Shown one piece after another: positions 567-35,404 of a stretch of DNA of 44,532 bases (its first letter is position 1; each line of letters opens with the position of its first letter). Position numbers and translations under genes: made by a program. The notes beneath the pieces were generated by a model. It did not search any database and was not told where the DNA came from. It was given only the letters and a program-made list of their open reading frames with translations. This DNA comes from Oscillospiraceae bacterium. Its GTDB lineage: Bacteria > Bacillota > Clostridia > Oscillospirales > Ruminococcaceae. Location of the stretch: contig JAFUNR010000056.1 in the NCBI GenBank assembly GCA_017472965.1, forward strand, positions 1 to 44,532. Direction: 5' to 3'.

Positions 567-950
567 GAGATACATTCCTCCTGTTGTGTTGCGGGGCCGT
601 CCAGTCTTGTAAAACAGAAAAGACCGCCCCCGGCATATTTCTGCCAAGGGCGATCTGTTGGATCGCGGTACCACCTTGTTTCGGCAGCTTCTTGCAAAGC
701 TGCCCTCGCTGCCCGGCAGACACCGGGCGTGCGCGGTAACGGGCGCACCCGCCGCAGGCTATGCGTTTTATGGATAAAGGCGGCGGAGCTGCTTCCGCAC
801 GAATCCTGCCGCCAAACCGCATCACCGGCGAAACTCCGGGACCATGTTCCCCCGTGCGGCAGGCGCCTGCTTTCAGCCGGTGGCAGGCTCTCTGTCAGCC
901 GTTCGCGGCGGGGTACTCTTCCCATCAAAGTTTTTAGGCATATTGATGTA
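567..950 (-). ncRNA. T-box riboswitch leader of metG (methionine specifier)
   Basis: Untranslated leader that senses uncharged tRNA-Met and permits read-through into metG when methionine charging is low. Read on the minus strand it holds, in order, a Stem I region with the GCTGAAAG element, a specifier-loop context GAACATGGTCCCGGAG with ATG at the complement of 843-845, a CCGTTA element, the T-box core GGTGGTACCGCG (complement of 661-674), and an intrinsic terminator. The order and spacing match transcription-attenuation T-boxes of Firmicutes. Reading ATG as the specifier is inference from its conserved flanks and agrees with the downstream gene. This leader and promoter account for the 459-base gap between metG and the next gene. 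Confidence 0.92.
614..655 (-). terminator. T-box-controlled terminator ahead of metG
   Basis: On the minus strand a hairpin pairs GATCGCCCTTGGCA with TGCCGGGGGCGGTC around a short AGAAATA-type loop, followed by TTTTCTG. It follows the T-box core closely and is the stem that would be replaced by the antiterminator when uncharged tRNA-Met binds. Confidence 0.85.
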
Positions 951-22392: not shown

Positions 22393-23187
22393 ATGAAACT
22401 GCTGTTCCTGGGCACCGCCGCCGATGACTGGTATGAAAAACCGGAGGAAGAACTTACCGATACCGACCGCCGCCGCTGCTCGATGCTGATCGACGGTCAT
22501 ATTCTGATGGATGCGGCGCGTTCCAGCTACGATTTTGCCCGCCGGCTGGGAGTGGATACCGCAAAGATCACGGATGTGGTCATCTCTCACAGTCATTCCG
22601 ATCACCTGAGCGCCGAGGCGCTGCTGAAATTCCGGCGGGATGCCGGTGCACCCATCCACATCTGGTGCCACACCGGTGCGGTGGAACGGCTGAGACTTTC
22701 CGAGGAGGAAAAGCAGCTGTTCTGCATCCATCCGCTGACCGTCGGCGAACGCTTCACCGTCAGCGGCTACAGCGTGCTGCCGTTGGCAGCCAACCACGGC
22801 ATGCCTGCCCCCGAGCAGGCGCTGCACTATGTGTGGAGCAGGGATGACACGCACCTTTTCTACGGCTGCGACGGCGCGTGGATCATGAACGAAAGCTGGC
22901 GGTATTTGAAAGACATCCCCTTTGACTGCATGATCTGGGATGCCACCTTCGGCGATGTGTGGGATCCGTTCTTCCGCAGCAAGCTGGGTGACTGCGGCCA
23001 CAACACCCTTTCCATGCTGAAGCTGCTGATCCCCATGGTAAAGGAGCACGGCTGCACCAAAGAGGGCTGCATCCACATCGGCGATCATTTTTCCCGCCAG
23101 ACCCATGAAGATCACGCCGGCACCGAAAAAATCCTTGCCGCCATGGGTATGCGCATGGCCTATGACGGCATGACGCTGGAGCTTTGA
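22393..23187 (+). CDS. Metallo-beta-lactamase-fold hydrolase (PhnP-like)
   Basis: 264 residues. The metal motif HSHSDH occupies residues 66-71, with a later histidine in AANHGMP, an aspartate in YGCDGAW, and a C-terminal IHIGDHFSRQ block. The N-terminal RRRCSMLIDGHILMD resembles the strand order of PhnP-type phosphodiesterases and lactonase-like enzymes. It acts in the cytoplasm with two metal ions, probably Zn or Mn. As the third gene of a carbohydrate unit it could hydrolyse a sugar lactone or cyclic phosphodiester, but the substrate is not predictable. AAAAAGGAGC precedes the ATG. The next promoter begins about 90 bases downstream. Confidence 0.82.
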   Translation: MKLLFLGTAADDWYEKPEEELTDTDRRRCSMLIDGHILMDAARSSYDFARRLGVDTAKITDVVISHSHSDHLSAEALLKFRRDAGAPIHIWCHTGAVERLRLSEEEKQLFCIHPLTVGERFTVSGYSVLPLAANHGMPAPEQALHYVWSRDDTHLFYGCDGAWIMNESWRYLKDIPFDCMIWDATFGDVWDPFFRSKLGDCGHNTLSMLKLLIPMVKEHGCTKEGCIHIGDHFSRQTHEDHAGTEKILAAMGMRMAYDGMTLEL

Positions 23188-23278
23188 AAAACTCCGGAAG
23201 GTCTCAAAACACTTTCCAACGTTTCATAAAGCCCCCCGCACAACTGAAAAAAACCAAAAATCACCGCTGCCGCGGCTC

Positions 23279-23307
23279 TTGACAAAACCCGGAAAAGATG
23301 CTATATT
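23279..23307 (+). promoter_or_regulatory. Promoter of the threonine-type T-box leader
   Basis: Consensus -35 TTGACA at 23279-23284, 17-base spacer, -10 TATATT at 23302-23307. It starts the leader upstream of the DUF4091-type gene and thrS. Confidence 0.88.
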
Positions 23308-23313
23308 TAACGC

Positions 23314-23570
23314 AATATCGGACAAAACCCTGAAAAGGGACACGACGTTCGGCATGGTTTTTCCAAGAGAGGCTCTCCCTTGTGGTGCAAGAGAGCTGAA
23401 AGGCCGCGGAACGCTACCACCCTTTGAGTGCGGCCAATACCCGCCGGCCAAGGCCCGTTACCGCCTTGCAAAGTGGCGCATACTCTGTGTGCGCAAGCTG
23501 GGTGGAACCGTGGAGTGTTTTTTATCGCTTCATCCCTCGTTTTTTGCGTGGGATGGAGCGTTTTTTATTC
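23314..23570 (+). ncRNA. T-box riboswitch leader with predicted threonine (ACC) specifier
   Basis: The leader shows an AGAGAG bulge region, the GCTGAAAG element, a specifier context GAACGCTACCACCCTTTGAG with ACC at 23416-23418 followed by A, a CCGTTA element at 23455-23460, the T-box core GGGTGGAACCGTGG at about 23500-23513, and a terminator. The parts and their order match transcription-attenuating T-boxes. ACC codes for threonine, and thrS lies 1.6 kb downstream in the same direction, but the first gene after the leader is a DUF4091-type hydrolase. Specifier assignment rests on conserved flanks only. This leader fills most of the 407-base gene-free gap. Confidence 0.9.
23526..23567 (+). terminator. 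T-box-controlled terminator
   Basis: CGCTTCATCCC pairs with GGGATGGAGCG around a T-rich loop, followed by TTTTTT. It follows the T-box core by 12 bases and lies 27 bases before the DUF4091-type start codon. Confidence 0.9.
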
Positions 23571-23594
23571 ACACCGAAAGGCAGGGCAGTTTCC

Positions 23595-25151
23595 ATGAAA
23601 TACACCTGTGTCGATCCCTCCGAATATCTGTATCCCGATATCACCGCTTACAAAAGCGGTACAGAAAGCATTCACATTCTGACGCCGCGGGGCAGTTATG
23701 CCTGTGCCCAGATCTTCCTTTTCGAAGGGGAAGGCACCGTCAGCATCGAATGTGAGGGCTGGGCTCCGGAGATCTATGAGATGGTGCCCATTCCCGTGGA
23801 GGAAAATATCCAGATCACCGATGAGACCCGTACCCCGTACACCCCCGTGCGGAACGCACCCTTTGAGGTTTTTGACTGCCTGAAGCCGTATGACGGCTGC
23901 GTAAGCTTCAAAAACGGTGTGGCTGCGGTCTATTTCTCGCTGCCGGTGCCGCAGGATGCCCCTGCCGGGATCCTCCGCGGCCTCGTGAAGATCGGCGGTA
24001 TGCGCATCCCCGTCACCGTGGAGGTCTCCCGCGCCGCCGTGCCGCCGGAATCCCTTTCCGTCCTTCTTTATTATGTACGGGAAAATGTGAGCCGGTATCA
24101 CAATGTGCAACCGGACAGCGATGCTTTCAACCGGCTGGAGACCGCTTACCTGACCATGCTGCGGCGGATGCATCAGAATGCGCTCTGGATCCCGGAAAAT
24201 GATCATTTCCCCATTGTCACTGCGCTGGGCGATAACCGCTACGATTTCGATTTCACCGAGATGGCCAGTTACATCCGCAAAGCTTTCGCCCTTGGATACA
24301 AGCGGATCTATCACAGGCTGGGTTACCGGAAAAGCTGGGAGGAATCCGCCATTCTGGTGCACGGACTTCCCAGCACAAGCTATGAAGGCTACTGCTGGCT
24401 GGCGCAATATCTGACAGCACTGTACCGCTTCCTCAAGGAAAACGGCTGGCTGGAAAGCTATATGCTCAGCGTACTGGACGAGCCGCGCGAGGTCAACGCC
24501 GCGGAATACCGTTCCCTGTGCAACACTATCCGGAAATTCGCCCCGGGTATCAAGCTGATCGATGCCATCTCCTTCGGCTTCGTGGACGGCAGCATCGATA
24601 TCTGTGTACCCCTGAGCGAGGAATTTGAAAACCACCGGGCGGATTACGAAACCTACCGCCGTTTTGGTGACGAGATCTGGTATTACGACTGCTGCGGGCC
24701 CCGCGGCCGCGGTTACATCAACCGTTTCATGGATTATCCGCTTCTCGCTACCCGCTATCACGGCTGGGCCAACTACGCCTACAATCTGACCGGTTATCTG
24801 CATTGGGCCGCCAACCATTACCAGCCAAATCACGACCCCTTCCGCCAGAGCTGCCCGCTGCACAGGAATACCAATCACGAATCCAAAATGCCCGCCGGCG
24901 ACACGCACATCATGTACCCCGGCACGGACGGGCCATGGATGTCGGTGCGTATGGAAAACCAGCGTGCCGGTTATGAGGAGTACGAAATGCTGCGCGCTCT
25001 TGCCTGCCAAAAGAAAGAACTGGCAGATACGATCTGTGCCGCCGGCTTCCGTTCCTTCCGGGATGTGGAATACGATCCGCTGTCCTTCCGCACCGCCCGA
25101 AATGCGCTGATCCGTGCACTGGAAGCAGTTCAATCCGAAGAAAACCGCTGA
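23595..25151 (+). CDS. DUF4091-type glycoside-hydrolase-like protein
   Basis: 518 residues from the ATG at 23595, after the T-box terminator; a longer in-frame start would overlap the riboswitch and was rejected. N-terminal beta-sandwich (about 1-160) then a TIM-barrel-like region with YMLSVLDEPREV near residue 290, where the Asp-Glu-Pro is the conserved acidic site of DUF4091 and related GH barrels. The C-terminal part has WMSVRMENQRAGYEEYEMLRALA, the characteristic DUF4091 ending. No signal peptide, so cytoplasmic. Its substrate is unknown, but the setting suggests an uronate-rich glycan. It is the first gene behind a threonine T-box and 51 bases upstream of thrS, an odd pairing. Confidence 0.8.
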   Translation: MKYTCVDPSEYLYPDITAYKSGTESIHILTPRGSYACAQIFLFEGEGTVSIECEGWAPEIYEMVPIPVEENIQITDETRTPYTPVRNAPFEVFDCLKPYDGCVSFKNGVAAVYFSLPVPQDAPAGILRGLVKIGGMRIPVTVEVSRAAVPPESLSVLLYYVRENVSRYHNVQPDSDAFNRLETAYLTMLRRMHQNALWIPENDHFPIVTALGDNRYDFDFTEMASYIRKAFALGYKRIYHRLGYRKSWEESAILVHGLPSTSYEGYCWLAQYLTALYRFLKENGWLESYMLSVLDEPREVNAAEYRSLCNTIRKFAPGIKLIDAISFGFVDGSIDICVPLSEEFENHRADYETYRRFGDEIWYYDCCGPRGRGYINRFMDYPLLATRYHGWANYAYNLTGYLHWAANHYQPNHDPFRQSCPLHRNTNHESKMPAGDTHIMYPGTDGPWMSVRMENQRAGYEEYEMLRALACQKKELADTICAAGFRSFRDVEYDPLSFRTARNALIRALEAVQSEENR

Positions 25152-25202
25152 AAATTACGGTTTTATCATAAGAAACACACTGTCATATAAGGAGAAAACA
25201 CT

Positions 25203-27146
25203 ATGATCAACATCACCCTGAAGGGCGGCGTCGTCAAGGAATTTGAGGCCGGCGTCTCTCCCATGGACATCGCCCGCGGCATCGGTGCGGGTCTGTTCAA
25301 AGCCGTCTGCGCCGCCGAGATCAACGGCGTGGTCTGCGATCTGCGCACCCCCATTTTTGAGGATGCCGAGGTCAGCCTGCTGACCTTTGAGGACAAAGAG
25401 GGCAAAAAGGCCTTCTGGCACACCACCAGCCATCTGCTGGCACAGGCTGTCAAGCGCCTGTTCCCGGATGCCCAGTGCGCCATCGGCCCCGCTGTGGATG
25501 ACGGCTTCTACTACGATTTCGATGTGAAGAAGCCTTTCAGCCCCGAAGATCTGGCCAAGATCGAGGCCGAGATGAAGAAGATCGTCAAGGAGGGCCTTGC
25601 ACTGGAGAAGTTCGAGGTTTCCGTTGACGAGGCCCGCGAGCTGGTCAAAGGCCAGCCGTACAAGGAGGAGCTGCTGGAGAAGCACGCCGCCGAAGGCGCC
25701 GCCATCAGCTTCTACCGTCAGGGCGAGTTTGTCGATCTGTGCGCCGGCCCCCATCTGCCGGATGTCTCCCGCATCAAGGCATTCAAGCTGACCAGCGCCA
25801 CCGGCGCTTACTGGCACGGTGATTCCAGCCTGCCCATGCTGTGCCGCGTGTACGGCGTCAGCTTCCCCAAGGCCAGTGAGCTGGAGGAGCATCTGACCCG
25901 TCTGGAGGAGGCCCGCAAGCGTGACCACAACAAGCTGGGCCGCGAGCTGGATTACTTCACCACCGTGGATTCCATCGGTCAGGGCCTGCCCATCATGCTG
26001 CCCAACGGCGCCCGCGCCATTCAGCTGCTGCAGCGCTGGATCGAGGACGAGGAGCAGAAGCGCGGCTACATTCTGACCAAGACCCCGCTGATGGCCAAGC
26101 GCGATCTGTACCGTATCAGCGGTCACTGGGATCACTATCTGGACGGTATGTTCGTGCTGGGCGATCCCATGGACGAGGAGAAGGAATGCTTCGCCCTGCG
26201 TCCCATGACCTGCCCGTTCCAGTATCAGGTGTATCTGAGCAAGGCTCGCAGCTACCGCGATCTGCCCATGCGTCTGGGCGAGACCTCCACCCTGTTCCGC
26301 AACGAGGATTCCGGCGAGATGCACGGTCTGATCCGTGTGCGCCAGTTCACCATCAGCGAGGGCCATCTGGTGCTGCGCCCCGACCAGCTGGAGGAGGAGT
26401 TCAAGGGCTGTCTGGATCTGGCCAACTACTGTCTGGAAACGCTGGGTCTGAAGGAGGACTGTTCCTTCCGCTTCAGCCAGTGGGATCCCGCCAACCCCGG
26501 CAACAAGTACGAAGGCACCCCCGAACAGTGGGAGCTGGCTCAGTCCACCATGAAAACCATTCTGGACGATCTGGGCGTCAACTACACCATCGGCATCGAC
26601 GAGGCCGCTTTCTACGGCCCCAAGCTGGATATCCAGATCAAGAATGTCTTCGGTAAGGAGGACACCCTGATCACCATCCAGATCGATATGCTGCTGGCCG
26701 AGAAGTTCGGCATGGAGTACACCGACTCCGACGGTCAGAAGAAGCGCCCCTACATCATCCACCGCACCTCCATGGGCTGCTACGAGCGCACGCTGGCCCT
26801 GCTGATCGAAAAGTATGCCGGTGCTCTGCCCCTGTGGCTGATGGGCACGCAGGTCAAGGTACTGCCCATCACCGACCGCGCACTGGAGGCCGCCAACGCC
26901 CTGAAGGATAAGCTGGCCGCCGCCGGTATCCGCGTGGAGGTGGATGCCCGCAACGAGAAGATCGGCTACAAGATCCGCGAGGCCCAGCTGAACAAGATCC
27001 CCTACATGGCCGTTCTGGGCGACAAGGAGGCGGAGAACGGCACGGTTTCCGTCCGTACCCGCAAGGCTGCCGATCTGGGCGCCATGCCTGTGGATGAGTT
27101 CGTTGCCCGCGTGGTGATGGAAAACGCCACCAGAGCCCGTGACTGA
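25203..27146 (+). CDS. thrS: Threonyl-tRNA synthetase
   Basis: 647 residues, full length. Class II synthetase that charges tRNA-Thr and edits mischarged serine. Domains in order: TGS (1 to about 60), editing/SAD domain with HTTSHLLAQAVKRLFP and the HLPD-type metal motif, catalytic core with RPMTCPFQYQVY (zinc-binding Cys) and LRNEDSGEMHGLIRVRQF, and the anticodon domain from about 545 (VKVLPITDRALEAA). AAGGAG lies 8 bases upstream of the ATG. No convincing promoter was seen in the 51-base gap before it, so it depends on the upstream unit and its T-box. A strong terminator follows. Confidence 0.98.
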   Translation: MINITLKGGVVKEFEAGVSPMDIARGIGAGLFKAVCAAEINGVVCDLRTPIFEDAEVSLLTFEDKEGKKAFWHTTSHLLAQAVKRLFPDAQCAIGPAVDDGFYYDFDVKKPFSPEDLAKIEAEMKKIVKEGLALEKFEVSVDEARELVKGQPYKEELLEKHAAEGAAISFYRQGEFVDLCAGPHLPDVSRIKAFKLTSATGAYWHGDSSLPMLCRVYGVSFPKASELEEHLTRLEEARKRDHNKLGRELDYFTTVDSIGQGLPIMLPNGARAIQLLQRWIEDEEQKRGYILTKTPLMAKRDLYRISGHWDHYLDGMFVLGDPMDEEKECFALRPMTCPFQYQVYLSKARSYRDLPMRLGETSTLFRNEDSGEMHGLIRVRQFTISEGHLVLRPDQLEEEFKGCLDLANYCLETLGLKEDCSFRFSQWDPANPGNKYEGTPEQWELAQSTMKTILDDLGVNYTIGIDEAAFYGPKLDIQIKNVFGKEDTLITIQIDMLLAEKFGMEYTDSDGQKKRPYIIHRTSMGCYERTLALLIEKYAGALPLWLMGTQVKVLPITDRALEAANALKDKLAAAGIRVEVDARNEKIGYKIREAQLNKIPYMAVLGDKEAENGTVSVRTRKAADLGAMPVDEFVARVVMENATRARD

Positions 27147-27174
27147 TCCCCAATAACATCACCGCTGTTTTTTC

Positions 27175-27207
27175 GGTCCCCCGGCTGCATCGGCCGGGGG
27201 ATTTTTC
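27175..27207 (+). terminator. Intrinsic terminator after thrS
   Basis: CCCCCGG pairs with CCGGGGG around CTGCATCGG, followed by ATTTTT, 30 bases after the thrS stop codon. Confidence 0.88.
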
Positions 27208-27245: not shown

Positions 27246-27274
27246 TTTACACCGGCGAACGGATGCCTTATAAT
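27246..27274 (+). promoter_or_regulatory. Promoter of the serine hydrolase-GH36-SGNH-GH28-uxaBA operon
   Basis: -35 TTTACA at 27246-27251, 17-base spacer, consensus -10 TATAAT at 27269-27274, about 60 bases before the first start codon. No second promoter was seen in the short gaps of the six-gene operon. Confidence 0.82.
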
Positions 27275-27332: not shown

Positions 27333-28496
27333 ATGGATTTCACCAAACTGAAGCAATGTATGGATGATCTGTGCGCATGGCGCATTCCCGGCAACTCCGT
27401 CATCGTGTATAAGGACGGCAGGCAGGTTTTCTCCTGTCAGTCGGGCTATGCGGATCTTGCGGCACAGCGGCCCATGGCAGGCGGCGAGGTTTTCCACCTG
27501 TACTCCTGTTCCAAGCCCATCACGGTGGCAGCGGCGCTGACACTGTTTGAAAAAGGGCGCTATCTGCTGAGCGATCCCCTGTACGAATACCTGCCCGAAT
27601 TCCGCCATATGTGGGTAAAGCGCCCGGACGGAGAGGTGGAGGAAGCGAAAACGCCCATCACGGTGAAGGATCTTTTCTGCATGACAGCGGGCTTCGACTA
27701 CTCGCTTTCCCGCCCTGCATTCGATCGGGTGCGGGAGCAGACCGGCGGCCGGATGCCCACCCGCGATGTCATCCGCGCACTGGCGGATGAACCGCTGGAT
27801 TTCCACCCGGGTGAACACTGGAGCTACAGCCTGTGTCACGATGTGCTGGCCGGCTTTACCGAGGTCGTGGCAGGCAGGAAATTCCGCGACTATGTGAAAG
27901 AGGTCATCTTTGATCCGCTGGATATGCGCGAAAGCGGTTATCACCACGACTGCACCGACCCCCGCATGGCGCGGCAGTACCGCTTCGTGCCGCAGGGACA
28001 GCCTGTGCCCTCCGGCGTCTTTGCCGAAGATCGCTGCGGCGGCAGCATTGTGGAGCACGGACAGGACAATGCGTATATCCTTGGGGCGGAATACGACAGC
28101 GGCGGCGCAGGTGTGACCGCCACGCTGGAGGATTACGGCAAATTCGGATTCGCGCTGGCGCACGGCGGCGTGGGCATGAACGGCGAACGCATTCTGGGCG
28201 CACGCACCATAGACCTTGCCCGGCAGGATCACCTGACCCCCGCGCAGGCGGCGGATTTCAACTGGCCGCAGTTCCGCGGTTTCAGCTACGGACTTGGACT
28301 GCGCACCATGGTGGATACCGCTGCAGGCGGTACCAACGGCTCTTTGGGTGAATGCGGCTGGGCCGGCGCTGCCGGTGCAACGCTGCTGGTCGATCCCACC
28401 GAACGGCTGGCACTGGTATACACCCACTATATGCTCAACCCGCAGGAGGAATATTATCAGCCCCGTCTGCGCAACTCCCTGTATTCCTGCCTGTAA
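27333..28496 (+). CDS. Beta-lactamase-fold serine hydrolase within the carbohydrate operon
   Basis: 387 residues. Same superfamily as the hydrolase at 15801-16898 but clearly distinct. The nucleophile motif SCSK lies at residues 58-61 in HLYSCSKPITVAAA, and the Tyr motif reads WSYSLCHDVL (Tyr165). A Gly-rich block near the C-terminus (ECGWAGAAGATLLVDP) replaces the usual KTG/HxG. No signal peptide. As the first gene of the uronate operon it may be a deacylating esterase that removes acetyl or methyl groups from oligosaccharides; this is inference. AAAGGAGG lies 8 bases before the ATG. Confidence 0.86.
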   Translation: MDFTKLKQCMDDLCAWRIPGNSVIVYKDGRQVFSCQSGYADLAAQRPMAGGEVFHLYSCSKPITVAAALTLFEKGRYLLSDPLYEYLPEFRHMWVKRPDGEVEEAKTPITVKDLFCMTAGFDYSLSRPAFDRVREQTGGRMPTRDVIRALADEPLDFHPGEHWSYSLCHDVLAGFTEVVAGRKFRDYVKEVIFDPLDMRESGYHHDCTDPRMARQYRFVPQGQPVPSGVFAEDRCGGSIVEHGQDNAYILGAEYDSGGAGVTATLEDYGKFGFALAHGGVGMNGERILGARTIDLARQDHLTPAQAADFNWPQFRGFSYGLGLRTMVDTAAGGTNGSLGECGWAGAAGATLLVDPTERLALVYTHYMLNPQEEYYQPRLRNSLYSCL

Positions 28497-28545
28497 ACAC
28501 AGGTTTTGCTGATATCCATCAAAAAAAGACAGTGAGGTAATCTTT

Positions 28546-30570
28546 ATGCTGCATTACAACGCTGAAGCCTCTGCCGCCGGACGGCTGGAACGCTTTCTGA
28601 AGGAATCCTTCCGCCCCGGCACATCCCTGCCCTTCTCCTTTACCTATGACGGCAAAAGCTCCCGCGAGCTTCTGACGGACTGGACCTTCGAAGCCACCGG
28701 CGACGGCGTTTCCTTCACCGCGCCGGACGGTCTGCGCGCCGCTGTGGAGCTGCGCACCTTTGAGGATTTCGACGCGGTGGAGTGGCTGCTGACCTTTGAA
28801 AACACCGCGGATAAAACCAGCGCCCTGCTGCAGGATGTGAACGCGCTGGATCTGTATGTGGAGACCGCGCCCTTCCGCACCGCCGGCACCCGCCAGTACG
28901 GTGCGCTGGACAATATTCTGTACTACAGCGGCGGCTCCGACTGCAAGGCGGATGACTTCATCCCCTGTCAGGAGATCCTGCACCACATCTCGGCGCGGGA
29001 GGAGATGAGCTTCGGCAGTATGCACGGCCGTCCCACCTCCGGCTCACACGGCTCCTTCCCCTATTTCAATCTGAAAACGCTGAACTGCGGTGTATTCTTT
29101 GCCATAGGCTGGTCGGGGCAGTGGGCCATGACCCTGCGCACCCGCCAGCAGGAAACCCCGGGGGCTGCCACCGCTTTCCGCTTCACCGGCGGTATGCCGG
29201 GGGTTTCCACCGTACTGTACCCCGGCGAAAAGATCCGCACCGCCCGCATCCTGCTGATGCCCTGGGACGGTGAGATCGGGGATTCCAATAACCTCAGCCG
29301 CCGGTTCCTGCTGAAATACCACACCCCGCATGTGGACGGCAAGCCCGCCGTGCTGCCGCTGAGCCTGCAGAGTTGGGGACACGATGAACAGCGCGGCAAG
29401 GCGGAGATCGACGAGGGCGTGCGCAGTGGCCTGCCCTTTGATACCTACTGGACCGATGCCGGCTGGTACGGCCCCGCGGGCAGCCACTGTGACGATCCGC
29501 TGTGCAACGACTGGAGCGACAATGTGGGCTGGTACAGCCACGATCCGCTGCGCTACCCCGGCGGCGAGGGCGCTGTGGGCAATTATGCCCATGAAAAAGG
29601 CCTGCGCTATCTGCTGTGGCTGGAGCCTGACCGTGCCGTGGAGGGCACCCCGAATATCACCGAGCATCCGGAATTCTACCTGAAAAAGACAACCGTAGCC
29701 AACTCTCATATGCTGAATCTGGGGCGCGAGGATGCCTACAACTGGGCACTGGAGATGCTCAGCGACAAGATCGCCAACTGCCCGCTGGATATCATGCGCA
29801 TCGATTACAACATCGGGCCGCTGGCAAGCTGGCAGGAAGAGGATACCGAGGATCGCCGCGGTATGACGGAGATTCGCGCAGTGGAAAACTTCTACCGCCT
29901 GTGGGCCGAACTGCGCCGCCGCTTCCCCCATCTGCTCATCGACAACTGTGCCTCCGGCGGCCGAAGGCTGGATTTTGAGGCCAACACCCACAGCGTTTCG
30001 CTGTTCCGCACCGATTACCTCTGTTACGCTGATTCCGATGCCACCGGTATGCAGCTGCAGACGGCAGGCCTTGCCCCCTTTGTGCCTCTGAACGGCCTTG
30101 TCTTCAAATGCTTTGACGGCAACCCCACGTGGTATGATTTCCTCAGCTATCTTGCCCCCGGCTTTGCGCTGACCCCGGCCCTGCTGAAGGACCTGCTCGC
30201 CGATGAAAGCAGACTGGCCATGATGCGCCGTATGCTGCAGGTGCTGCTGCGGGTGCGCCCGCTTTTCTGCGGCGATTTCTACTGCTTCACCTCCGTCACG
30301 CTGGATGAACGCGACTGGTTCGCCTATCAGCTGAACCTGCCGGAGGAGGGCAAGGCCTGTGTCTTCAGCGCCCGTCGCTCCCAGTGCGCCATGGGCGCCG
30401 CCGTCTACGCACTCAAGGGGCTGGAGGCCGATGCCATCTACCGTCTGGAGGACGCCGAGACCGACACCGTGCTGGGCGAGATCCCGGGCGCAGAGCTGAT
30501 GACCAAAGGTCTTTGTGTCACTCTGCCCGAAAAAGAGACCGCCAGCCTGATCTTTGTCACCAAAATCTGA
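28546..30570 (+). CDS. GH36-type alpha-galactosidase
   Basis: 674 residues. Retaining alpha-galactosidase of the GH36/melibiase clan. N-terminal beta-sandwich to about residue 260, then a (beta/alpha)8 barrel opening with YWTDAGWYG (about 301-309). The predicted nucleophile is Asp420 in IMRIDYN, and the predicted acid/base region is DNCASGGRRLDFE (466 onward) with Asp490 in FRTDYL. A short C-terminal beta domain follows. No signal peptide, so it acts on internalised sugar. In the operon it would remove alpha-galactose side units from imported oligosaccharides. The GDSNN and DTYWTDAGW blocks argue for GH36 over GH27. Specificity for galactose over related sugars is inferred, not shown. Confidence 0.88.
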   Translation: MLHYNAEASAAGRLERFLKESFRPGTSLPFSFTYDGKSSRELLTDWTFEATGDGVSFTAPDGLRAAVELRTFEDFDAVEWLLTFENTADKTSALLQDVNALDLYVETAPFRTAGTRQYGALDNILYYSGGSDCKADDFIPCQEILHHISAREEMSFGSMHGRPTSGSHGSFPYFNLKTLNCGVFFAIGWSGQWAMTLRTRQQETPGAATAFRFTGGMPGVSTVLYPGEKIRTARILLMPWDGEIGDSNNLSRRFLLKYHTPHVDGKPAVLPLSLQSWGHDEQRGKAEIDEGVRSGLPFDTYWTDAGWYGPAGSHCDDPLCNDWSDNVGWYSHDPLRYPGGEGAVGNYAHEKGLRYLLWLEPDRAVEGTPNITEHPEFYLKKTTVANSHMLNLGREDAYNWALEMLSDKIANCPLDIMRIDYNIGPLASWQEEDTEDRRGMTEIRAVENFYRLWAELRRRFPHLLIDNCASGGRRLDFEANTHSVSLFRTDYLCYADSDATGMQLQTAGLAPFVPLNGLVFKCFDGNPTWYDFLSYLAPGFALTPALLKDLLADESRLAMMRRMLQVLLRVRPLFCGDFYCFTSVTLDERDWFAYQLNLPEEGKACVFSARRSQCAMGAAVYALKGLEADAIYRLEDAETDTVLGEIPGAELMTKGLCVTLPEKETASLIFVTKI

Positions 30571-30620
30571 GGCTTTCTTTTGCAAACACCACAACAGTTT
30601 TATAAATAAGGAGAAACACC

Positions 30621-31184
30621 ATGAAAAAAGTCGTACTTCTCGGCGATTCCATCCGTCAGATCGGCTACGGCGCCCGTGTGGCGGAATTGCTGAAAGATGA
30701 ATTCACCGTATGGCAGCCGACGGATAACTGCCGCTTTGCCCAGTATACGCTGCGCGGTCTTTTTGACTGGCAGTCGGATATCGAGGGCAGCGACATCATC
30801 CACTGGAATAACGGTCACTGGGATCTGTGCGAGCTTTTCGGCGATGGCACCTTCACCCCGGTGGAGCGCTATGTGGAACTGATGGTGCGCATCGCCAAGC
30901 TGCTCAAGCAGCGGGCCAAAACCGTCATCTTTGCCACCACCACCCCCGTGCTGCCGCAAAACCCCTACAACCGCAACGAGGTGATCGCCCAATTCAATGC
31001 GGCGGTGGTTCCCGAGCTGGAAAAGCTAGGTGTGGTCATCAACGATCTGAACACCCTGCTTGCCGCCGACATTCCCGCCTGCATCCGTGAGGATGACATG
31101 ATCCACCTGACCGATGCCGGCATCGAGCTGGCCGCCGCACAGGTGGCCGCCTGTATCCGCACCGAAGCGGAAAAATTGAAATAA
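30621..31184 (+). CDS. SGNH/GDSL-family hydrolase
   Basis: 187 residues, compact single-domain esterase. Block I is LLGDSIRQ with nucleophile Ser10. A WNNGHWDL stretch (about 62-69) carries the Asn of the oxyanion hole. The C-terminal DMIHLTDAG provides Asp159 and His162 of the catalytic triad. No signal peptide. Enzymes of this type often remove acetyl groups from polysaccharides such as rhamnogalacturonan, which would fit the neighbours, but the acyl group and sugar are inferred. AAGGAGA lies before the ATG; 50 bases separate it from GH36. Confidence 0.9.
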   Translation: MKKVVLLGDSIRQIGYGARVAELLKDEFTVWQPTDNCRFAQYTLRGLFDWQSDIEGSDIIHWNNGHWDLCELFGDGTFTPVERYVELMVRIAKLLKQRAKTVIFATTTPVLPQNPYNRNEVIAQFNAAVVPELEKLGVVINDLNTLLAADIPACIREDDMIHLTDAGIELAAAQVAACIRTEAEKLK

Positions 31185-31220
31185 GACAAACACTTCCACC
31201 GGTAAGGAGCACTGAATACC

Positions 31221-32600
31221 ATGGATCATTCCGGACTTTTTGACGTGACCGCTTTCGGCGCACAGCCGGACGGCACCACCCTTTGCACCGCTGCGGTACA
31301 GGCGGCGGTGGATGCCTGCGCCGCAGCCGGCGGCGGCACCGTCAGTTTTCCCGAGGGCGATTATGTGCTCGGCAGCGTTTTTTTGAAAAGCGGTGTACAT
31401 ATCGAGATCACCGAGGATGCCCTGCTGCTGGGCAGTCTCGACTTTGCCGATTACGCCCCGCACGAGCCGGTGGATTATCCGCTGTATCAGGATGCCTCCC
31501 ACAGCTTTTTCCACACCTCCCTGTTCGTGGCGGAGGGATGCACCGATCTTTCCTTCTCCGGCGGCGGGCGCATCGATATGCGTTCGGTCTGGGATGAGGA
31601 AAATGTACGGGATATGGCGCACCGCGGCGCAAAATGCATCGCGCTGAAAAACTGCCGCAGCGTAGAGATCTGCGAACTGGATATCCAGAACGCCACCGAT
31701 CTTGCGGTGTATTTCGCCGGCTGCGAGGAGGTGGATATCCACCACCTGACCATGCGGGTCTACATCGACGGCATCAGCCCGGACAACTGCCGCAGTGTGC
31801 GCATCCACGACTGCGATATTGAAAGCGGCGACGACGGCATCGTTTTCAAAAGCTCCTATACACTGAACCGGCTGGGCGTGTGCCGGGATATCCGCGTGTG
31901 GAACTGCAATGTGAAAAGCCGCTGCAACGCCATTAAGTTCGGCACCGAGACCAACGGCGGCTTTGAGGATATTCTGGTGGAGGATGTGCGCATCTTTGAT
32001 GTGCGCATCAGCGGCATCGCCATCGAAAGCGTGGACGGCGCCGTCATCGACGGGCTGACCCTGCGCCGCATCGCCATGGTCAATGTCAACGCCCCGCTGT
32101 TCATCCATCTGGGGCAGCGGATGCGCGGTCCTGCAGGGCGCGGGATCGGCGCGATCCGCAATGTTCTGCTGGAGGGCATCTCTGCCGACGGCCCCTATGA
32201 TGAATACAATGTCATCGCATGGAACTATGACACCTTCAAAAAGAAGGATTTCCATCAGAAACCCTGGTGCTTCCTTGCACCGGAGGATTCCACCCCCGAC
32301 AGCGACTGGCAGATGACCTCCAATGTGTGCGGTCTGGCCGGACACGATCTGGAAAACATCACCCTTCGCAATATCAGCCTGCGGCTGGACGGCGGTGTAA
32401 AGGAATACGCCCCCGATGTGCCGGACAAGGCTCCGGAATACCCGGAGGTGTATGTTTACGGCCGCATCCTGCCCGCCAAAGGCATTTTCTTCCGTCACAT
32501 CAACGGTCTGACACTGGAAAATGTCACCGTGAAAACATTCCGCCCCGACGCCCGCGAGGATTTTGTCTTTGCCGACGTCAAAGATCTGAAACGAGGTTGA
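31221..32600 (+). CDS. GH28-like (polygalacturonase-type) beta-helix hydrolase
   Basis: 459 residues. Opens with FDVTAFGAQPDG and TAAVQAAVDACAAAGGGTV, as GH28 proteins do, then forms a right-handed beta-helix. Of the GH28 acidic residues, Asp183 in YIDGISPDN and the pair Asp204-Asp205 in SGDDGI are present. The usual catalytic histidine motif GHG is replaced by CNAIKFGTETNGG (about 235-247). The protein lacks a signal peptide and so would act in the cytoplasm on imported oligomers. The missing histidine points to an exo-acting or divergent specificity. AAGGAGC precedes the ATG. It lies 6 bases before uxaB, so the two are tightly coupled. Confidence 0.87.
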   Translation: MDHSGLFDVTAFGAQPDGTTLCTAAVQAAVDACAAAGGGTVSFPEGDYVLGSVFLKSGVHIEITEDALLLGSLDFADYAPHEPVDYPLYQDASHSFFHTSLFVAEGCTDLSFSGGGRIDMRSVWDEENVRDMAHRGAKCIALKNCRSVEICELDIQNATDLAVYFAGCEEVDIHHLTMRVYIDGISPDNCRSVRIHDCDIESGDDGIVFKSSYTLNRLGVCRDIRVWNCNVKSRCNAIKFGTETNGGFEDILVEDVRIFDVRISGIAIESVDGAVIDGLTLRRIAMVNVNAPLFIHLGQRMRGPAGRGIGAIRNVLLEGISADGPYDEYNVIAWNYDTFKKKDFHQKPWCFLAPEDSTPDSDWQMTSNVCGLAGHDLENITLRNISLRLDGGVKEYAPDVPDKAPEYPEVYVYGRILPAKGIFFRHINGLTLENVTVKTFRPDAREDFVFADVKDLKRG

Positions 32601-32606
32601 TGCACT

Positions 32607-33986
32607 ATGATCAAGATCCTGCAGTACGGCGAGGGCAATTTCCTTCGCACCTTTGTGGATGCCTATTTCGACTGTCTGAACAAGGAAGCGGGCGAAAAGA
32701 AATACGAGGTCCACATCGTCAAGCCCATCCCCTTCGGCACGCTGGATGCCTTTGCCGACCAGAACAACCGTTACCACACCGTTCTGCGCGGTGCGGTGGA
32801 CGGCAAGCCGGTGGAGCTGGTGCATACCATTGATGTTGTAGCACAAGCCATCGACCCCTTTGCCGATGATGCTCCATATTATGCACTGGCCCGCGATCCC
32901 GAGCTTGCCATCATCGTCTCCAACACCACCGAGGCGGGCATCTGCTTCAGCGAAAAAGACGATATCGGCGGCTTTGCAGAGATCACCTATCCCGCCAAGC
33001 TGACCAGGCTGCTGCTGGAGCGCTGGCGTGCCGGACTGCCCGGCGTACATCTGCTGCCGGTGGAGCTGATCGATTCCAATGCCGATGTGCTGGCGGACTG
33101 CGTGGAAAAATACATCGACCTGTGGCAGCTGCCGGAGGAGTTCCGCCGCTGGAACGCACAGCAGAACCATTACTGCAACACGCTGGTGGACCGCATCGTA
33201 TCCGGCCATCCCCGCACGCCGGAGCTGAAGGCCCATCTGACCGGGCTGATCGGCGAAGAGGATGCGCTGTGCAGCGTAGGCGAGCCCTTTGGCCTGTGGG
33301 CCGTGGAAAACAAGGGCAATGTGGCTGCGCTGCTGTGCGAGGGCGTGCATGACATCGAGGTGGTGCTCACCGACGACATCCTTTATTACAAAAAACGAAA
33401 GGTACGCGTACTCAACGGCAGCCACACCAATCTGGTCCCCGCCGGTCTGCTGCACGGCGCAGTAACGGTGTACGACTGTCTGACCGATGAAAAGCTGCGC
33501 CGCTTTGTACAGGATACCCTGACAGAGGAGATCAACCCCTTTGTTTCGGACGATCTTGCCGCCACCGCCGCCTTCGCAGCCTCCGTCACCGACCGCTTCG
33601 GCAATCCCTATCTGGATCACCAGCTCACCAGCATCGCGCTCAACTCCATCAGCAAATGGAAAGCCCGCGTGCTGCCCACCTTCAAGGATTATTTTGCCGC
33701 CCGCGGCATGCTGCCCCGCCGGCTGACCATCGGCTTTGCCTATCTGATGGCGCTGTATGCTTCCGTGTACAAAACGGCGGATGGCTATGCCGCAGATGTA
33801 CCCGGCCGCACCGTCGCCCTGCAGGACGATGCTGCGTATCTGGAATACTTTACCGCCGGCGGCAGCATTGCCGGATTTATGGCGGATACCGCCGTCTGGG
33901 GCGAGGATCTGACCGCTATTCCCGGCTTTGCCGATGCAGTCGCCGCCCATGTCGCCGCTATCCGCCGCGGGGAGGAGCTGCTGTGA
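32607..33986 (+). CDS. uxaB: Tagaturonate reductase (altronate oxidoreductase)
   Basis: 459 residues. Converts D-tagaturonate to D-altronate with NADH in the galacturonate branch. It belongs to the mannitol-dehydrogenase family: N-terminal ILQYGEGNFLR nucleotide-binding start, the family block CNTLVDRIVSG near the middle, and KVRVLNGSHTNLVPAGLL, which contains the catalytic Lys/Asn/His region. It is a little shorter than E. coli UxaB. Ribosome site CGAGG is weak, but the gene starts only 6 bases after the GH28-like gene and may rely on coupling. It overlaps uxaA by four bases (GTGA). Mannonate reductase (UxuB) is the closest alternative; the uxaA neighbour favours UxaB. Confidence 0.9.
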   Translation: MIKILQYGEGNFLRTFVDAYFDCLNKEAGEKKYEVHIVKPIPFGTLDAFADQNNRYHTVLRGAVDGKPVELVHTIDVVAQAIDPFADDAPYYALARDPELAIIVSNTTEAGICFSEKDDIGGFAEITYPAKLTRLLLERWRAGLPGVHLLPVELIDSNADVLADCVEKYIDLWQLPEEFRRWNAQQNHYCNTLVDRIVSGHPRTPELKAHLTGLIGEEDALCSVGEPFGLWAVENKGNVAALLCEGVHDIEVVLTDDILYYKKRKVRVLNGSHTNLVPAGLLHGAVTVYDCLTDEKLRRFVQDTLTEEINPFVSDDLAATAAFAASVTDRFGNPYLDHQLTSIALNSISKWKARVLPTFKDYFAARGMLPRRLTIGFAYLMALYASVYKTADGYAADVPGRTVALQDDAAYLEYFTAGGSIAGFMADTAVWGEDLTAIPGFADAVAAHVAAIRRGEELL

Positions 33987-35404
33987 ACGATATCATCCGC
34001 ATCAACGAAAAGGACAACGTTGCCGTAACGCTTTCCGGCACCGGCGAGATCCCCGCCGGCCACAAACTGGCGCTGCGGGATATCACCGCCGGCGACTATG
34101 TGATCAAATACGGCCAGATCATCGGCCGCGCCAAACAGGATATTCCCGCCGGTGCGTGGGTGCACACCCACAATGTGGCATCCCATCTGGATGAGGCGGT
34201 GGAATATCATTACAAATTTGCCGCCGACACCGTTGCGCCGCAGCCCGGCTTTTTTCAGGGCTATCCCCGCCAAAAGGGACGCGCCGGCATCCGCAACGAA
34301 ATTTACATCATTCCCACCGTGGGCTGTGTGAACAACGTGTGCATCCGGCTGGCCAAAGAGGCGCAGCAGTATGTGCACGGCAATCTGCACGGCATCTACG
34401 CACTGACCCATCAGTTCGGCTGCAGTCAGCTGGGCGAGGACAACGAAAACATCAAAAAGCTGCTGTGCGCCATCGCACTGAACCCCAACGCCGCCTTTGT
34501 ACTGATCGTCGGTCTGGGCTGTGAAAACAATACTCTTGCCGGGATGCAGGAATACCTTGCCCCCTTCGAACGGGACAACATCGTCAGCTTCAACTGTCAG
34601 GAGGTGGAGGATGAGCACACCTTCGGCATGGAGCTTCTGCGAAAGCTTGCCGACCGCGCTGCAGCGATGCAGCCGGAGCAGGTGCCGCTTTCCCAGCTGT
34701 GCATCGGGCTGAAATGCGGCGGCAGCGACGGTTACTCCGGCCTGACCGCCAATCCGCTGGTGGGCCGCATCTGCGACCGCGTGGTGGCCGCAGGCGGCAG
34801 TGCCATTCTGACCGAGGTGCCGGAGATGTTCGGCGCCGAGCAGCTGCTGATGAATAAATGCAAGGATGTGCCCACCTTTGAAAAGTACCGCAGCATGATC
34901 GAAAATTTCAAGCGGTACTACACCGATCAGGGCTTCCCCGTGTATGAAAATCCCAGTCCCGGCAACAAGGCCGGCGGCATCACCACACTGGAGGAGAAAT
35001 CGCTCGGCTGTATTGAAAAAGCAGGCTCCACCGCGCTGGTGGGCGTGCTGGATTACGGCGAGGTGCTGGCCGGCGGTGAACGGATCGAAGAAAACGGTGT
35101 CTTTGCGCTGAATGCGCCCGGCAACGATCTGATCGCCGCCACGGCGCTGGCCGCCAGCGGCTGTCAGCTTGTACTGTTCACCACCGGAAGGGGCACGCCG
35201 TTCTCCACCTTTGTGCCCACCATGAAGATCGCCACCAACGACCGTATCGCTGCCCACAAATCCGGCTGGATCGATCACAACGCCTATCCCATGGACGAGG
35301 ACGCACTGTATGAGCTGGTGATGCGCACCGCCTGCAACACCTACACCTGCAAAAGCGAGGATGTCCGCGAGATCGCTTTCTACAAAACGGGTGTGACGCT
35401 GTGA
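33983..35404 (+). CDS. uxaA: Altronate dehydratase
   Basis: 473 residues from a GTG start that overlaps the uxaB stop (GTGA) and has GGGGAGGAG 6 bases upstream; a longer ATG-started reading would run inside uxaB and has no family match. The first about 90 residues are the SAF domain (DIIRINEKDNVAVTLSGTGE ... HTHNVASHL); the rest is the UxaA catalytic region with GYPRQKGRAGIRNE, GCVNNVC and GLKCGGSDGYSG. It dehydrates D-altronate to 2-keto-3-deoxygluconate, probably with Fe2+. It ends the six-gene operon before a bidirectional terminator. Confidence 0.94.
   Translation: MNDIIRINEKDNVAVTLSGTGEIPAGHKLALRDITAGDYVIKYGQIIGRAKQDIPAGAWVHTHNVASHLDEAVEYHYKFAADTVAPQPGFFQGYPRQKGRAGIRNEIYIIPTVGCVNNVCIRLAKEAQQYVHGNLHGIYALTHQFGCSQLGEDNENIKKLLCAIALNPNAAFVLIVGLGCENNTLAGMQEYLAPFERDNIVSFNCQEVEDEHTFGMELLRKLADRAAAMQPEQVPLSQLCIGLKCGGSDGYSGLTANPLVGRICDRVVAAGGSAILTEVPEMFGAEQLLMNKCKDVPTFEKYRSMIENFKRYYTDQGFPVYENPSPGNKAGGITTLEEKSLGCIEKAGSTALVGVLDYGEVLAGGERIEENGVFALNAPGNDLIAATALAASGCQLVLFTTGRGTPFSTFVPTMKIATNDRIAAHKSGWIDHNAYPMDEDALYELVMRTACNTYTCKSEDVREIAFYKTGVTL

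Follow-up and report, generated by a model that had tools for sequence, protein, structure and literature searches.

Organization of the thrS locus

The window analyzed here is a stretch of 44,532 nucleotides from contig JAFUNR010000056.1 of an Oscillospiraceae bacterium (assembly GCA_017472965.1, a draft of 63 contigs with a completeness figure of 85). It contains a threonyl-tRNA synthetase gene (thrS) separated from a T-box leader by a glycosidase gene, with genes for pyruvate kinase, an M29 peptidase, and pectate-lyase-like, GH36-like, GH28-like, mannitol-dehydrogenase-like, and altronate-dehydratase proteins around them. The features of the locus are the following:

23279-23307, + strand: sigma-70-like promoter TTGACA-17-TATATT (11/12), with TG before the second hexamer
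23321-23540, + strand: T-box leader, Thr-specific (Rfam RF00230), aligned with 22 other thrS leaders
23416-23418, + strand: specifier codon ACC (Thr)
23503-23506, + strand: bulge sequence UGGA, able to pair with UCCA, the 3' end of the three tRNA-Thr genes read
23510-23517 / 23526-23533, + strand: competing (antiterminator-side) helix, -10.4 kcal/mol, z -0.85
23526-23566, + strand: intrinsic terminator with U-run (hairpin 23526-23560, -23.8 kcal/mol, z -7.9)
23595-25151, + strand: GH123/DUF4091 beta-N-acetylgalactosaminidase-like gene, 518 aa (Pfam PF13320)
25152-25202, + strand: 51-base spacer with Shine-Dalgarno-like AAGGAG, without usable promoter or stable hairpin
25203-27146, + strand: thrS, threonine-tRNA ligase, 647 aa (TIGR00418, E 2.4e-189)

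The leader starts 13 bases 3' of the promoter-like site, the GH123 ATG follows the end of the U-run by 27 bases and the thrS ATG follows the GH123 stop codon by 51, so that both the order (T-box, DUF4091 gene, thrS) and the distances given in an earlier, sequence-only reading of this DNA were correct. The ThrS protein matches TIGR00418 along its full length at the equivalog level (630.9 bits, cut-off 383.65) and is of the type usual in the family, with about 70% identity to the proteins of many relatives. Downstream of thrS the window holds a sugar and sugar-acid cluster (27333-35404) made up of beta-lactamase-family, GH36-like, GDSL-like (below cut-off), GH28-like, mannitol-dehydrogenase-like, and altronate dehydratase genes, with a promoter-like site ahead of it (27246-27274, 11/12).

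The protein encoded between leader and thrS contains the Pfam domain GH123_cat (PF13320; E 5.8e-45, 154.5 bits against a cut-off of 23.1). Its best PDB match by sequence, covering residues 78-507, is 8k2j (E 8e-53), named in its entry as an oligosaccharide/monosaccharide-releasing (OR/MR) beta-N-acetylgalactosaminidase, and the catalytic DE motif is found as D295-E296 in SVLDEP, aligned to the DEP of 8k2j. Passages of PMC11087588 place the OR/MR beta-NGAs in Group 3 and report the DE motif in 94% of 734 DUF4091 sequences. With the GH123_cat/DUF4091 domain and the DE motif in common with enzymes of the 8k2j type, the window protein is predicted to have beta-N-acetylgalactosaminidase activity. 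Neither a signal peptide nor a hydrophobic N-terminus was evident in it by eye.

A threonine-specific T-box leader

The sequence-only reading had proposed a complete T-box leader with an ACC (Thr) specifier at this place, and a search with Rfam/Infernal supports the T-box, with a reservation as to its score. At permissive settings on a 521-base stretch (23180-23700), RF00230 was matched over its full length at 23321-23540 (+) with 60.7 bits (E 8.1e-13, or 1.0e-12 for the same leader when the whole genome was scanned), a score that falls below the Rfam gathering score of 93. Because of this, a default Rfam scan of the window displays one T-box alone, at 643-937 (-), which by eye adjoins a metG-like gene, in agreement with the earlier statement that the metG leader lies directly against metG. 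There are 14 other RF00230 matches in the genome, ten above the cut-off and four below it, the latter including the leader of a second thrS on contig C5 (70.8 bits, see below).

For the specificity of the leader we aligned 23 sequences, namely the window leader, that of the second thrS of this genome, and 21 relatives picked from loci with a T-box match. Both the ACC specifier (23/23) and the UGGA of the bulge are invariant among them. The tRNA-Thr genes found among 30 fetched loci of the 41 tRNA matches in the genome (GGU, UGU, and CGU) all end in UCCA, with U as discriminator, and the discriminator therefore pairs with UGGA, following the rule, in passages of PMC7778990, that the UGGN bulge pairs with the discriminator of the cognate tRNA. 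By motif search (C56 duplicate left out, see below), 11 of the 14 own T-boxes examined have UGGU instead of UGGA; in the ileS leader the string picked up by the search turned out on inspection to be stem I, the bulge being UGGU. The thrS leader thus combines a specifier matching its synthetase with a bulge matching the cognate discriminator.

At its 3' end, the strong terminator is accompanied by an overlapping helix, as in the terminator and antiterminator alternatives of a T-box; the competing helix shares bases with the terminator and its stability is no greater than that of shuffles. Stem I ACC, UGGA bulge, terminator with competing helix, and a TTGACA promoter-like site just upstream are all shared with the T-box leaders (RF00230) of Bacillota thrS, from which the window differs in having one extra gene between leader and synthetase.

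Probable insertion of the GH123 gene

The nearest relative of the window thrS within the family (L026 of genome G058, 73% identical) has its T-box directly ahead of the synthetase, with the model end 35 bases 5' of thrS and a matching terminator, TTTTTTATTC included. The leaders of these two loci are 66% identical, compared with 41-53% between the window leader and the other 21 aligned leaders. No other GH123 match more than 34% identical appeared in two family samples of 247 and 396 genomes (which overlap and include the source genome), and the nearest homologues (55% identical) belong to two genomes from another family of the same order, where the stretches fetched gave no T-box match. We considered whether the T-box had arrived together with the GH123 gene, and rejected it, as our thrS leader model (R1, see below), run with an E limit of 1, matched nothing in the sequence fetched for 17 loci of GH123 relatives, and the window leader has its best counterpart in the locus of the nearest thrS relative.

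By these comparisons the leader goes with thrS, and GH123 would be the later arrival. The comparison supports the earlier proposal of a glycan-use gene placed between leader and synthetase: most likely the GH123 gene was inserted there, and it was probably acquired by transfer. Its GC3 is 0.70 against 0.84 in thrS, a gap that fits a recent arrival but equally weak expression. With regard to a mobile-element origin of the insert, a near-mode search of a phage collection gave no match. When related thrS loci were compared, as the sequence-only reading had advised, inserts were found to recur in this position (see below), but the order T-box, GH123, thrS was seen in the source genome alone.

Promoters and the probable transcription unit

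In the consensus scan, no promoter-like site on the + strand starts between 23280 and 25179 and none lies wholly inside the 150 bases 5' of thrS, so the claim that thrS has no convincing promoter of its own holds for the spacer and for these 150 bases. By consensus scans, then, there is a promoter before the leader and none convincing before the synthetase. Were thrS driven mainly by its own promoter at the end of the GH123 gene, the T-box would control GH123 alone, and two sites could be cited for it, one of 9/12 at 25180-25207 and another, TTATCA-17-TATAAG, seen by eye and missing the final T. However, the second hexamer of the former overlaps the thrS start codon and the -10 of both sites stands at the Shine-Dalgarno or start codon, which would yield transcripts without a ribosome-binding site. 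Such a promoter is quite improbable, also in view of the relatives.

Of the 25 thrS loci of the family that carry an insert (see below), 23 have a promoter-like site of at least 10/12 before the T-box and two have one before thrS, shuffled sequence giving an expectation of 1.0 in either place; the regions tested were about 80 bases 5' of the T-box and 150 bases 5' of thrS. At a threshold of at least 9/12, the corresponding values are 24 (5.1 expected) and seven (5.0 expected), and such a site before the T-box is also present in 54 of 61 direct thrS leaders. This enrichment before the T-box, with chance level before thrS, argues that in the insert-bearing loci cargo and thrS are transcribed from the leader promoter.

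At the window locus, the promoter-like site, leader, specifier, tRNA match, terminator, and gene order make up an established architecture, from which we infer co-transcription of GH123 and thrS and their response to threonine. Very probably, the two genes form a unit with one promoter and one threonine T-box, in which a foreign GH123 gene has been inserted between the terminator and thrS. Uncharged tRNA-Thr would pair with the ACC in stem I and use its UCCA end to bind the UGGA bulge, allowing the antiterminator to form and RNA polymerase to continue through GH123 into thrS, so that transcription of both genes is expected with uncharged tRNA-Thr. With charged tRNA-Thr, transcription would stop at 23560-23566, leaving both GH123 and thrS off.

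Inserts between T-box and thrS in the family

We collected the upstream regions of 109 family thrS genes, which were the better-ranked matches (244 genomes matched, some loci at contig ends skipped), with up to 1500 bases for 29 loci and up to 2500 for 80. They were scanned with R1, a covariance model trained on the 23 aligned leaders; the training rows match by construction, but most of the distant T-boxes among these rows had first been detected with Rfam. Of the 109 regions, 94 contain a T-box in the orientation of thrS, the other 15 having no match within the stretch fetched. The gap from the end of the model to thrS is at most 154 bases in 63 of these 94 loci (gene start uncertain in two) and 217-1984 bases in 31. 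It is in the long gaps that the inserts appear: 25 of the 31, that is 25/94 T-box loci, have same-strand ORFs, and they come from 17 genera (mapped by hand). The remaining long-gap loci (L030, L032, L040, L100, L157, and L158) have no convincing same-strand gene and were not counted, although antisense ORFs are present in L030 (122 aa) and L032 (157 aa).

The genes found in this position are of very different kinds. Pfam families above cut-off were assigned in 12 of the 25 insert-bearing loci, all on the thrS strand, and comprise VanW, DUF3795 with radical SAM, Ham1, DUF815 (three loci), NUDIX (two), GNAT, GNAT with DUF6572, SUFU (L109, where a longer antisense ORF without family lies opposite), and methyltransferase. 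In the remaining 13 loci the ORFs are putative genes for small membrane, acidic, or other proteins, none with a Pfam family above cut-off and some shorter than 130 aa. This way of counting partly presupposes co-orientation with thrS, which is an independent result only where a Pfam family was assigned. A weakly conserved family of small membrane proteins with a YW motif lies between T-box and thrS in L047, L096, L112, and L131, and also in L133, L135, L137, and L140, and matches nothing in Pfam above cut-off. In L089, L092, L123, and L166, the gene that comes first behind the thrS T-box encodes a DUF815 AAA ATPase.

A second (named) set of 80 thrS loci, overlapping the first (e.g., L170 and L083), gave a T-box match in 66, with gaps of 412-3198 bases in eight of them; DUF362 genes were found here in L201 (T-box match weak, E 0.004) and L209. 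In a thrS tree (FastTree only), 27 of the 112 rows were dropped (no T-box, long gaps, or outgroup; loci fetched only for their gene start were not in the tree), and the 85 rows with a clear state (11 insert, 74 direct) require at least eight label changes, a count that is blind to gain versus loss. One pair is L180 (direct) and L181 (insert), with near-identical thrS and leaders 88% identical (that of L180 truncated 5' by the contig end), in which a DinB_2-like ORF (below the Pfam cut-off) stands between terminator and thrS in L181 and is absent in L180.

This variety of cargo bears on the regulatory link that the sequence-only reading had raised between threonine starvation and the breakdown of a particular glycan, for example threonine-linked O-glycans. 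If the coupling were adaptive, the substrate of the glycosidase would supply threonine or a precursor (e.g., from glycopeptides) and the link would have been selected. Threonine and this glycan could be connected biologically, as the GH123 gene is intact, keeps its catalytic DE motif and sits amid sugar-use genes (GH36-like, GH28-like, altronate dehydratase). However, unrelated genes occupy the same slot in relatives, which leaves the proposed link unsupported, and the GH123 insertion was seen in the source genome only. The mucin GalNAc-O-Thr linkage is of the alpha type. By contrast, GH123-type enzymes hydrolyze beta-GalNAc linkages (passages of PMC11087588), and together with the lack of an evident signal peptide and the changing cargo this led us to set the O-glycan example aside. 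We thus regard adaptive coupling as unlikely; any gain from tying glycan use to the supply of threonine is probably incidental, since GH123 is one of many unrelated genes in the slot.

The arrangement could also be an artefact of assembly, with the GH123 gene of another strain mis-joined into the thrS leader. The genome is a draft in many pieces, and the same contig shares 1197 identical bases (306-1502, metG-type T-box included) in reverse complement with the end of contig C56, due to strain variation, duplication, or assembly overlap. Nevertheless, frame, leader, and spacing are intact at the locus, a single contig carries leader and frame without a break, arrangements of this type occur in 25/94 other T-box thrS loci, and the insert-bearing assemblies include some of about 8 and 10 contigs (G145 and G167), making a mis-join highly unlikely.

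Inserts behind other synthetase T-boxes

Inserts are not exclusive to thrS. In the source genome itself, the tyrS T-box (contig C21) is followed by a metallo-beta-lactamase-fold gene (Lactamase_B_3, L003:1664-2413) and then by tyrS. Control loci were scanned with R1 at E up to 0.01, and gaps were taken by hand from the coordinates, the long ones being rechecked; recall was low because R1 was trained on thrS leaders, and it missed the source genome's own ileS leader. For tyrS, a T-box was found in 26 of 30 loci, seven of the 26 with gaps above 300 bases, and four of these seven have a same-strand ORF (endonuclease V and GNAT included), while L274 and L275 have antisense ORFs of 165 and 121 aa. 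Out of 18 ileS loci scanned (30 fetched), seven gave a T-box, with two gaps above 500 bases, one of them with a same-strand ORF; for valS there were 16 T-boxes in 30 loci and a single gap above 300 bases. The idea of thrS as a special slot was dropped, given the inserts in tyrS loci and in the tyrS of the source genome.

The GH123-thrS locus is most likely one case of an event common in this group. As a tentative generalization, which we hold to be possible but somewhat doubtful, the site after synthetase T-box terminators (thrS, tyrS, perhaps ileS) in Oscillospiraceae-type Bacillota may be a recurrent gene-capture slot, where unrelated genes would be inserted co-directionally, placed under the control of uncharged tRNA, and quickly lost or exchanged, as a "starvation cargo" of each lineage. 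The insert counts refer to T-box-synthetase gaps alone and are not a gain rate relative to operons in general.

Relation to known T-box operons

A T-box operon in which the synthetase is not the first gene is an architecture already known. In the material of Wels et al. (2008; PMC2494555) considered here, the legend of Figure 4 ("light green") covers operons with a T-box of matching specificity in which the synthetase gene does not come first, and Table 2 has non-synthetase and hypothetical genes under synthetase-type T-boxes, spr1471 (Thr) of S. pneumoniae among them. This Thr case is annotated as "Thr-tRNA ligase related hypothetical"; in the window, the first gene is instead a foreign-looking glycosidase, within a family whose slot genes vary. 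The passages of PMC3766115 considered make no mention of the synthetase-not-first architecture. In the literature searched by title and start of abstract, no paper dealt with repeated capture or with T-box control of a glycosidase, and earlier reviews may describe cases.

Functions of genes that follow a T-box are inferred from its specifier, for example in PMC2494555. If genes enter the slot by positional chance, a threonine T-box is no proof of a role in threonine metabolism, and in these bacteria amino-acid starvation may act as a switch for genes with no relation to it. This is directly testable, since a single promoter seems to serve leader, cargo, and synthetase.

A second thrS in the source genome

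The source genome has a second thrS on contig C5 (G000:C5:27067-29101), with its own T-box directly ahead, and the copy behind GH123 may therefore not be the sole housekeeping one. The products of the two copies are about 37-39% identical. Bacillus subtilis has two threonyl-tRNA synthetases in one genome (thrS and thrZ), with a T-box before each. Two copies each behind a T-box are likewise found here, with the difference that one has an intervening gene. Among 112 thrS proteins compared, the C5 ThrS is most similar (44%) to that of the genus's other genome, in which no further thrS was found.
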